64,000 bases of DNA from Tribonema minus (Eukaryota; Sar; Xanthophyceae; Tribonematales; Tribonemataceae). The stretch is taken from the NCBI GenBank assembly GCA_017506865.1, contig JAFCMP010000013.1, positions 806,001-870,000 of the forward strand, given 5' to 3'. Below the pieces are notes generated by a model. The model was not told the origin of the DNA. It saw only the letters and a list, made by a program, of their open reading frames with translations, and made no database searches. Below, piece after piece: positions 11,597 to 64,000 of this stretch (within the stretch, counting starts at the first letter, position 1; the number at the start of each line of letters is the position of its first letter). The translations under genes were made by a program, and so were the position numbers.

Positions 11597-14500
11597 CTAC
11601 AATGATGAGCACGGGTGCGGCGGCCGCGAGACGCCGAGGCGGCCAGACAGGCCCCAGGGAGGGAGTGTCACCACCTCCTCTGCGGCGGTTGGGTGTATCG
11701 CCACACACGCGTCGAAGTCTGCCTTGGTGGCGCCCATCTGTATGCACACAGAAATGCGCGATGATTAGAAGCTTGGTGGTGGGCAACAGAACGCGCATAT
11801 GCAGGCGAAGGCATTGGGGGGGGGGGGGGGGGGGGGGGGGTCACTCGATGGTGAACACACGCCTGGGTGCATGGCTGCTGCGGCGCTTGCATGCGTTGAA
11901 GTGAAATTCAGATGTGAGTTAGTCAGGTGTGGTGATGCTCCAGCCGCACACGGAGGCTTGTTTGAAGACATTCAAGCAGAGTCTGTCACAGAGTCTGCCA
12001 ACGAGTAGTACCAGTGATGGCCGATCATGAACTTGCCGGTGTTACTGCGCTCCAATGACGCAGTGTGCAGTGGCCAACAAGCACGAGCTTCCCTGATGCT
12101 GTCTGCGTACAACGCAATTGTTGCAAGAGTGTTCGGATCAATTGAGCCACTAATCATATCGAGATGCATAAAATTTAGCGAAGGTGAAGGTGACTTCCTC
12201 AAATGACTCTCCAGGCAGCTATGCAAGCGCGCTGTTGCAGGCATTTATTTTCACCTCGCTGGCGCACTTCAACTGGTGCCATGCGCAGCTTAGTAATTTA
12301 AACCGAAGCAGCGCTCACCTTAATGGCTACCGCAAACCCCTGCAGCATCTCGTCGGCGCCCATGCCCACCACGTGCAGGCCCACCACCTGGCAGAACACA
12401 ACAGTTGAAGTTCACGGCATGCCATTGATCAGTTGCAGTAAGTGAGGTCGCAAAGCAGCGACCCATGAGGCCGGTTCTGTACCATGACAAGCCCTGCCTT
12501 GGCAGGGGTGCAGGTACAGCCTACAGCAAAGCCAAGGAGACTAATTTTGTATAAGCTTCAAAGCCGTCTGCCCTGATAGTGGCAGTCAATATGCATGCTG
12601 TGCTCCGACAGCTACTTGAAGACAAGGTTTCACTAACGATAACTGTTCCCAACAAGCCAAACTGCTGGGGGGGAGGGGGGGAATTCTGATGACAGCAAAC
12701 TAAGCAGCAAGCGTACAGCAAAATCACACGTCCGTTTGTTGGAGGCACATGTATTCACCCATGTTTGTCACCTTCTAACAAGTACACGAATGTGTATGTT
12801 CGTAATGCCTCTTTACCTTTTCATCAGGTCCCTGGCAGACGAGCTTCACTGCCGTCTTGGGCTTGTCGGCAGGCGCCGTGTCAAAGGGCCCAAAGAAAAG
12901 GTTCACGAACCGCGATGTGTACACCTTGACGTTGTCTTGCCCATATCTGCGCAGTGCATTCACAATGCATTCACAACGTGAACGGTGGCAACAGCTCTGC
13001 AGTGGAGGCCACGATGCCTCTTATGATAGTGGCAAATGGGGAAATAACCGGTCTTCCCTGCACAAAGCATTGATATGTGAGCATGGAGAGTCTGGCTTGT
13101 TTCATTGACACACATCACCAGTAACAAAGCTTTTAGCCTTTGTTCTCTCGTCTCATGGCAGTACTTCCCCGACTTTCGTGGAAACGAATCAGAAGTCGTA
13201 GATCAGCTCTAGTTGACAAGGTATATTGTCCAAGTGCTGGGGTACCTTGTCGTTGCATACCTACCCTTGATCTGATCGATGCTGAGCGCTGCATACCTTT
13301 TGACGGCCTGCGGCTCCGTCAACCCGACGGTGCCAACGGGCGGGTGTGTGAAGTACACGGAGGGGACGGTATCAAATGACGCCTTGGCCTGTGGCAGCGC
13401 TCCGTTGAACAGTCGATCTGCCAGCCGCCGCCCCGCAGCGATCGCCATAGGCGTCAGCTCCAGCTGAGTTGACGGCAAGAATGTTGTGCAATGACGCAGC
13501 ATGTGAGGCGCGCAGGACGCATAGGTGCACACTGCTCCAAGACAGAGACACAGCAGTGCTCTACATCTATGCAGCAACGCTTCGCTGCGAGTGGGCCAGC
13601 CGGAGTCGCTTACGCCACGCAGCGTTTCTTTGAATGCAATGACAACGCAAATGAGCAGCGCTGGCAGAGATCCGCTTATCATTGGGTCTTCTCCCCTCTT
13701 GGCCCTCGTAGTGCCAGTGGCATCAGCTGCGGCTGCGACTGTGACGGTGAACGTGGTGACAGCACAGTGCAGCCCATGTAGCCCCCCTGAGCTCTACCAC
13801 TGTGTTCACGGCTATGGCAGTTGGGACTGGTGTGATCTGCAAGATTTGAGCACTCTTGCGCTAACCCTAAACCTAAAATGCAGCTGGTCCTAATCCTCAT
13901 CCTAACACTATGTAAGCAGGCATACTGGCGCCCGTTGCACGCACGCCACCGAGCTCGTCCAAGCAGTACTCGAGCAGACTGCCTCCAGGGCTGCCACGCG
14001 ATCAATACGCAACCCTGACCTTCAGTGAGACTCTGACTGACTCGGAGATTTCATTACTTGTGAAGTTCCTCTTGTCTTGCAACAAATCACCCTGAAGAGG
14101 ATATTGCGGTATTGGAAGTGCGAAAGCAGAGTTTTTTTAGGCCTGGTGCGTGGTCACTTCAGGCTGTGTCCTCCTATCTGTGCACGTGCACATGTTGGTT
14201 CCTTGATCGATTATAGTTCCCTCAGTATCCTTAGTTTTGTCAGTCTCAGTAATTACCACAAATACTGACCTTGCAAGAGACTCTGACCAAGACTCATGAC
14301 CGTAAAGCACGAACTGCACAGATCATTACCGTACTTCCTTCTGCGCCACTGCTGGCTACGCCTTGAAGGCTCAGAATCGGGGCCACAATCCGCGCTAAGT
14401 AGGGTTTGATCTCACCTTGCCTGTGACGTCACCCAGTCTCGTCACTGTTACAGTACTTGATGAAGTACTTGACGTGTTGCGGCAGTTGGCACCTCGACGA

Positions 14501-63590: not shown

Positions 63591-64000
63591 ACCCCCACCC
63601 CCCGTGCGCGCGCGCCGCGCACATGCCGCAATCGGCAACTCGTCTGCTAGTCATCACATCTAACGCCCACGCCGCACCCCCCCTCCCCCCGCCGCGCGGC
63701 GCCGCAGTTCCGTGTTTGCCGAATCGACCAGCTACGAGCAGAACTTTATGACGCTGCGCTGTGCCCCCCTCCCCCCCCCCGCACGCACCATGCGCACCTG
63801 CCGCAACTCGTATGCTAGTCATCACATCTGACGCCCGCGCCGCGCCCCCCCCCCGCCTCGCGGCGCCGCAGCTCCGTGTTGCCAAGGCGACCAGCAATGA
63901 GCAGAACTTCCTGACGCTGCGCTGCGCCCCCCCCCGGCGCGCCGCGCGCACCTGCCGCATTTCGTCTGCTAGTCACCACATCTAACGCGCCCACGCTGCC
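63590..64000 (+). repeat. ~165-bp tandem units with C-tract, acceptor and exon start
   Basis: Units of the form gcgcac-tgccgcaa-tcgtctgctagtcatcacatc, C-rich tract, gcgccgcag| and exon start. Exon-like starts are at 63711 and 63871. The second lacks one base and breaks the frame, and a third unit begins near 63940. This is the acceptor-side version of the exon-end copying seen throughout the window. Confidence 0.75.

Follow-up and report, generated by a model that had tools for sequence, protein, structure and literature searches.

Genes and repeats of the window

The window, by which is meant the whole stretch of 64,000 nucleotides that was analysed, belongs to a genome of 158.18 Mb in 554 contigs. 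On its minus strand lie the genes for glutathione reductase (GSR, 24392 to 11663) and phosphoglycerate kinase (PGK, 49720 to 37064), for which exact exon borders were obtained with a spliced protein aligner, together with pieces of a chlorophyll-binding protein (LHC, about 58.7 to 55.0 kb) that are taken here as a single gene. The frame that the original prediction called a plastid ORF belongs to ferredoxin-NADP reductase (FNR; best solved relative at E 1.5e-39), and this gene runs on beyond position 64000. The window also contains a leader with the ANAFV motif, a feature characteristic of red secondary plastids; with the LHC pieces, it suggests that the DNA is that of an alga. For the GT-like gene, a Pfam search with a rough concatenation of its frames returned no family.

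The window also holds repeats of other kinds. Four arrays of 81-bp repeats (1381-1821, 9136-9626, 51391-52336 and 52537-53158) encode ankyrin-like units of the form CPWD..TC..AA..GHLEVLQWARANG, which we take to belong to the ankyrin family; the last two arrays are mutually opposite in orientation. Judged from translations only, a partial second copy of the GSR 3' end with its flank seems to exist (4702-6012 compared with 11090-12387), and telomere-like interstitial repeats (CCCTAA/TTAGGG) are dispersed in introns, for instance at 16640, 22470, 41152-41181 and 43435-43463.

Exon-edge copies in the window

In a self-comparison of the window at spacings below 500 bp, 77 local pairs are direct and 2 are inverted, the ankyrin-like arrays included. 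Copies of exon ends lie next to 9 of the 16 PGK borders and 5 of the 26 GSR borders, the latter falling to 4 if 15 nt of exon are required and the ambiguous borders of GSR (exon 7 donor, exon 8) being retained. All are placed outward of the exon that they copy:

49547-49720, minus strand: PGK exon with its donor border at 49547 (spliced alignment, PDB homologue 7zy7)
48570-49619, minus strand: PGK donor-anchored array, exon ending at 49547; four copies, at offsets 160, 383, 543 and 765
47846-48326, minus strand: PGK acceptor-anchored array, exon 47732-47935; copies 194 and 345 bp upstream
46635-46993, minus strand: PGK donor-anchored array, exon 46928-47071; copies at 118 and 247 bp
44096-44329, minus strand: PGK donor-anchored duplication, exon 44311-44406; 118-bp unit
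42980-43304, minus strand: PGK acceptor-anchored copy, exon 42884-42994; 287 bp upstream
42469-42937, minus strand: PGK donor-anchored array, exon 42884-42994; copies at 95, 196 and 377 bp
41905-42110, minus strand: PGK acceptor-anchored copy, exon 41774-41941; 153 bp upstream
38586-39134, minus strand: PGK acceptor-anchored array, exon 38501-38623; copies 192 and 371 bp upstream
37508-38546, minus strand: PGK donor-anchored array, exon 38501-38623; border copy at 367 bp
21467-22850, minus strand: GSR acceptor-anchored array, exon 21382-21480; only 14 nt of exon
21206-21403, minus strand: GSR donor-anchored copy, exon 21382-21480; 167 bp, 22 nt of exon
17219-17911, minus strand: GSR acceptor-anchored array, exon 17159-17285; copies about 167-175 and 344 bp upstream
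14361-14566, minus strand: GSR donor-anchored copy, exon 14547-14594; 131 bp

The array at donor 49547 includes up to 73 nt of exon, the GSR donor copy of exon 21382-21480 has 31 nt at 97%, and in the PGK acceptor copy of exon 42884-42994 the AG is aligned as AA. A diverged piece at 39107-39208 looks by eye like part of PGK exon 40367-40486; lying in the next intron, it is possibly an old exon copy.

Copies were found in LHC and FNR as well, one acceptor border being examined in each, and repeat arrays in the GT-like gene:

56863-57138, minus strand: LHC acceptor-anchored copy, exon from 56919, read as far as 56813; copy lies 169 bp upstream
63592-64000, plus strand: FNR acceptor-side array, reaching 64077 in the flanking locus L003
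32242-33395, minus strand: GT-like donor-side array, exon ending NLVVSQ (innermost 33282-33299); six spacings, 175-1034 bp
28218-28988, minus strand: repeats, probable GT-like acceptor-side array of the exon with the FGPVNTVGANCS end
27814-28173, minus strand: repeats, probable GT-like donor-side array of the exon with the FGPVNTVGANCS end

The LHC copy (108 bp, 91% identical) covers the intron end, the AG and the exon start, and the exon itself stops before a GT donor at 56812. In FNR the two acceptor copies precede the exon by 173 and 332 bp and repeat the C-rich tract together with GCAG and some 40 nt of exon; the exon start is likely to be 64035, just past the window. In the GT-like gene the donor-side repeats are spaced at 175, 355, 542, 697, 866 and 1034 bp.

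The original prediction, whose PGK exon n is exon n-1 here, had read exon-end copies in five spliced genes. They are present in PGK, GSR, LHC and FNR, while in the GT-like gene arrays lie near the places named, including that of its exon 7. Its counts of four copies at the PGK exon 2 donor (the array at 49547), two at the exon 4 donor (118 and 247 bp) and two at the exon 3 acceptor (194 and 345 bp) are recovered, and the six spacings agree with its count of six at the GT exon 3 donor; at the PGK exon 6 donor the array is real, with three copies (95, 196 and 377 bp) in place of the four claimed. Its overall estimate (roughly forty copies, about twenty borders) seems to be of the right order on a partial recount.

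Extension to twelve genes

The survey was extended to 12 genes: PGK and GSR of the window and, elsewhere in the genome, three PGK paralogues, six CCT subunits and one Cpn60. A family search of the genome gave the further loci, three for PGK and ten grouped loci for chaperonins, of which seven were used and C51, C511 and C544 left out. Exon models were built on solved-structure homologues for the six CCT genes and on E. coli GroEL for Cpn60; in the aligner output, spurious short exons were removed and one split exon was merged by hand. The first exon of PGK_C113 (21 nt) was retained and that of PGK_C3 (18 nt) omitted, and introns may contain missed exons, chiefly in CCT2, CCT3 and CCT4. Seven uncertain borders (CCT2 one, CCT4 three, CCT3 one, CCT8 two) are excluded from the border count; four of them had matches, which are still counted among the arrays. 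At C51:21979-22639, three overlapping chaperonin profile matches in a row (positions 52-88, 53-81 and 51-147) suggest an acceptor-side array.

An exon end and its splice site are copied in the adjoining intron at 43 of the 159 usable borders. Matched borders number 9/16 in the PGK gene of the window (PGK_C13), 5/26 in GSR, 4/22 in PGK_C113, 1/16 in PGK_C468, 1/16 in CCT1, 4/9 in CCT4, 4/11 in CCT3, 6/10 in CCT8 and 9/12 in Cpn60, whereas CCT2 (0/7), CCT7 (0/10) and PGK_C3 (0/4) have no border copy; the range per gene is thus 0/7 to 9/12, and seven genes supply 41 of the 43. At one Cpn60 donor the copies are regular, at 166, 328, 489, 655 and 800 bp. Introns are longer at matched borders (median 1067 vs 727), and so are exons (150 vs 127.5). 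Donors (24/80) and acceptors (19/79) are matched alike, which gives no pointer to a 5'-biased effect of R-loops.

Across the 159 borders, 0 inward and 0 inverted copies were found. The original rule, that donor copies lie 3' and acceptor copies 5' of the exon so that the innermost border is the true one, holds for every copy at these borders, and recurrent duplication that adds intron sequence and decoy splice sites is seen in many of them. Neither the outward direction nor the innermost rule needs a special mechanism, because selection acts on the exon.

Some features of the gene models were noted in passing. GC donor sites account for 6 of the 80 trusted donors; 68 of 83 introns are in phase 0 by cumulative exon length (12 genes; loci L025-L028 and L045-L051), among them all introns of the four PGK genes in the aligner models; and PGK_C3, with few introns and no border copy, has a repeat cover of 0.00 in its introns.

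Nature and decay of the duplications

Tandem duplication is widespread in this genome as a whole. In 16 arbitrary 10-kb stretches, taken at identical coordinates on 16 contigs whatever their gene content, direct repeats cover a mean of 11% (0-23%) and inverted repeats 0-1%. In the retrieved stretches and most of the window there are 367 repeat pairs. Their offsets are commonest at 75-200 bp; 241 fall within 75-400 bp, and the remainder form a tail beyond 1 kb. The repeats have the same-orientation, head-to-tail arrangement of small tandem duplications, and the freshest units match over their full length. In the four freshest, unit and match lengths are 331/331, 291/293, 92/92 and 94/95 bp, and the difference between the two suggests a junction homology of 0-2 bp. 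In a less fresh case (unit 63, match 68, 90% identical) the homology could be 5 bp.

The 12 genes hold 73 arrays. In 50 of them, including four at uncertain borders, the repeat enters an exon by 10 nt or more; the other 23 stop short of that. The exon-reaching arrays account for 20,157 bases of intron, which is about a quarter of the total of 78.9 kb, and the others for 7,490. Those 23 arrays, and the arbitrary stretches, show that duplication also happens away from exon ends, so that on this point the original prediction is not supported as stated.

Decay was followed by comparing copies with originals, matches inside one array being not independent of each other. The match is 0.89-0.91 in the exon part and rises to 0.94-0.95 for the two bases on either side of the splice point; in the intron it is 0.81-0.84 at +2 to +60 and 0.89 at +61 to +100. 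Intron mismatch at +2 to +60 (0.16-0.19) is thus about twice that of the exon part, and at +61 to +100 (0.11) it is below the value nearer the border. A one-sided drift of about 0.08 predicts about 0.08 for the splice dinucleotide and about 0.16 for the intron part. The GT/AG of the copies mismatch in 8 of 139 cases (0.058), neighbouring exon-derived positions matching at about 0.89. In the PGK genes copy mismatch is 0.072, 0.087 and 0.151 at codon positions 1, 2 and 3, the third being greater because the exon itself changes there. The splice sites of the copies are therefore not conserved beyond neutral decay (0.058 vs 0.072 and 0.087), and a frame-breaking gap interrupts the exon part in 13 of 87 matches. 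An apparent conservation of the exon part beyond neutrality was also considered and set aside: the choice of match ends biased the measure, and simulation and per-position counts come close to one-sided decay. On the whole, the decay of the copies supports neutrality, and the copies look like passive debris rather than maintained sites or exons.

A probable preference for exon-intron junctions

The control for border matches consisted of random intronic points from the same half of the same introns, drawn 5000 times. The 12 genes have 43 matched borders vs a control mean of 20.6, and 0 of the 5000 draws reach 43. The ten genes from elsewhere in the genome have 29 matched borders out of 117 vs 16.7 (0/5000 draws). 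When at least 20 nt are required on both sides, the figures become 28 vs 17.7 for the 12 genes (1/5000 draws) and 20 vs 14.6 outside the window (60/5000 draws), a ratio of 1.37. The excess being smaller under this requirement, part of the larger one is made of mostly-exon matches; indeed, 26% of border matches (21% outside the window) barely enter the intron, vs 8-17% in simulations. Repeat cover peaks at the junction (0.32). It drops to 0.11 at 60 nt into the exon, and on the intron side to 0.21 by 100 nt and 0.14-0.19 over 150-500 nt.

Simulations of evenly placed duplication, which rest on chosen parameters, gave a border/intron ratio of 0.83-0.94 when only survivable events were kept; earlier variants with a whole-intron control gave 0.54-0.76. 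With the survival filter, 0 inward copies were produced. A simulated threefold junction bias reached 1.32-1.54, still below the 1.57-1.9 observed on a comparable control. Exon cover at 60 nt is 0.36 of the border value, vs 0.5-0.86 in the three simulations with most border matches; this steep exon-side fall mildly favours a junction-centred process, assumptions on unit length mattering here.

Several other sources of the excess were tried and rejected. Runs of poly-C or poly-G (at least 7) lie near 5 of 43 matched and 14 of 116 unmatched borders, growth from short ancestral introns gives the ratio of 0.54-0.76, homology-driven growth of arrays gives 0.06-0.14, and without the low-complexity filter there are still 43/159 matched borders vs 22.6 expected. 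Subject to these caveats, junctions carry about twice the detectable duplications of matched intronic points. There is likely to be a real junction excess, roughly 1.6 to 2.4 times the even model, owed partly to the easier recognition of exons. Such a twofold excess, unlike the innermost rule, requires a special mechanism.

Origin of the copies

Tandem duplication might instead be even everywhere, exon edges seeming special since the copy of a conserved exon is more easily recognised. Events within introns and in arbitrary stretches speak for this, as does the fall of the ratio to 1.37 outside the window under the stricter requirement, but simulations that allowed for slow exon evolution, indels, deletions and short-intron growth gave 0.54-0.94, not the observed 1.4-2.1; an even process is a serious alternative, if a doubtful one. 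It is improbable that slippage, unequal exchange or microhomology-mediated repair between short exon-end repeats builds the arrays, as the original prediction proposed in part. More than one match occurs in 52% of border hits vs 8-19% in steady-state simulations, which would suit such growth, but a fast-growth simulation without any homology effect also reached 39%. The 0-2 bp of junction homology suggested by the four freshest duplications, a small sample, seem to fit both slippage and microhomology-mediated repair poorly, and a homology-driven simulation drops the border ratio far below one (0.06-0.14). A homology-driven process may expand arrays already formed.

If selection kept the copies because they serve as splice sites (alternative or regulatory) or alternative exons, this would account for splice dinucleotides that match in 131 of 139 cases, above the level of their exon-derived neighbours. 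A high GT/AG match is, however, what one-sided neutral decay predicts, because the original GT/AG cannot change; moreover, PGK codon positions 1 and 2 differ similarly (7-9%), frame-breaking gaps occur, and the PGK acceptor copy 194 bp upstream meets a stop before the exon (by eye), all of which makes selection very unlikely. Slighter still is the chance that new introns arise here, either by tandem duplication of an AGGT-containing exon segment (the Rogers model) or by introner insertion. Tandem duplication is the common element, and the prevalence of phase 0 would fit, but the duplicated unit includes a pre-existing junction. The intron-rich PGK genes on C13, C113 and C468 have introns in common at protein positions 126, 174, 206, 243, 338 and 379, which indicates that those introns predate the copies; despite these six common introns, the copies of the three paralogues lie mostly at differing borders, and no new intron at a duplication was found among them. 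An introner probe, one mostly intronic sequence of 501 bases, matched itself alone in the genome. The least credible reading is an assembly artefact: tandem arrays are commonly misassembled, but most copies differ by 7-31% (5th-95th percentile of identity 69-93), their decay is ordered, and the pattern recurs on several contigs.

The copies are probably explained by recurrent tandem duplication, in which junction-spanning copies are retained and decay, introns are lengthened and junctions receive an excess. According to this explanation, many regions of the genome would acquire tandem duplications, arranged head to tail and for the most part spaced by 75-400 bp, through a recurrent mutational process. 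The lesion may be a break or a pair of nicks that is filled in and joined end to end; the end-joining pathway is suggested by the four fresh cases and by the published behaviour of breaks with overhangs (PMC8355091). A duplication across an exon-intron junction would be tolerated if the junction adjoining the intact exon is used, so that selection would spare events with the innermost border intact, which fits the 0 inward copies at 159 borders, and would purge duplications wholly within exons. The surplus copy would remain intronic, decay and carry a decoy splice site, and repeated events would give arrays anchored on exon edges and hence longer introns.

Exon edges seem to take more events than intron interiors, whatever the cause. 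Exons or their edges may be more prone to breaks; a simple option is that breaks are more frequent in exons, where only events that cross a junction survive. More tentatively, and with somewhat less than an even chance, junctions may be hotspots at which breaks linked to transcription, splicing or chromatin lead to tandem duplication, with the introns of this lineage growing outward and leaving a readable record.

Comparison with known systems

To our knowledge, intron lengthening other than by transposon insertion is poorly documented. Small tandem duplications in rice were reportedly described by Vaughn and Bennetzen in 2014, intron gain by tandem duplication is said to have been treated by Rogers and by Hellsten, and internal gene duplication reportedly by Gao and Lynch in 2009. 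Like internal gene duplication, the events seen here fall within genes; unlike it, the duplicated exon pieces stay intronic and decay.

Small tandem duplications arising from the fill-in of breaks or nicks are described by Schimmel et al. 2021 (PMC8355091), and the present repeats resemble these in being direct and head to tail, in forming a general class of mutation and possibly in having little junction homology. Two differences are apparent: (i) insertions there are below 100 bp, whereas here 241 of 367 pairs are offset by 75-400 bp, and (ii) exon-reaching arrays here make up about a quarter of intron bases in the 12 genes and are biased to junctions. Intron gain by tandem duplication is known, and in a potato case the intron-exon structure was copied and an 83-bp duplication within an intron is mentioned (PMC4974935). 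That case shares with the present one a tandem duplication taking in splice signals, but here existing introns lengthen, none is gained and the border in use is unchanged. For Drosophila, novel intron positions are reported to be explained by intron sliding or tandem duplication (PMC2891723). Duplication at intron borders is common to both; in contrast, the units here are tens to hundreds of bases long and form repeated arrays, at intron positions common to paralogues in PGK.

Recurrent exon-edge copies in introns are not described among the best-matching open-licence papers, which is not proof that no description exists. What is new relative to the literature found is that exon-edge duplications occur at about a quarter of the borders examined and make up a large part of introns.

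Implications for intron growth

Exon-edge duplication is one way in which introns lengthen in this genome, and its individual steps can be read, dated by their decay and counted. The conserved exon serves as a built-in clock, for the exon part of a copy decays one-sidedly and the intron part two-sidedly. The decoy splice sites offer a natural test of how the spliceosome chooses among near-identical sites. Junction-centred duplication, if true, would tie a mutation process to gene structure.
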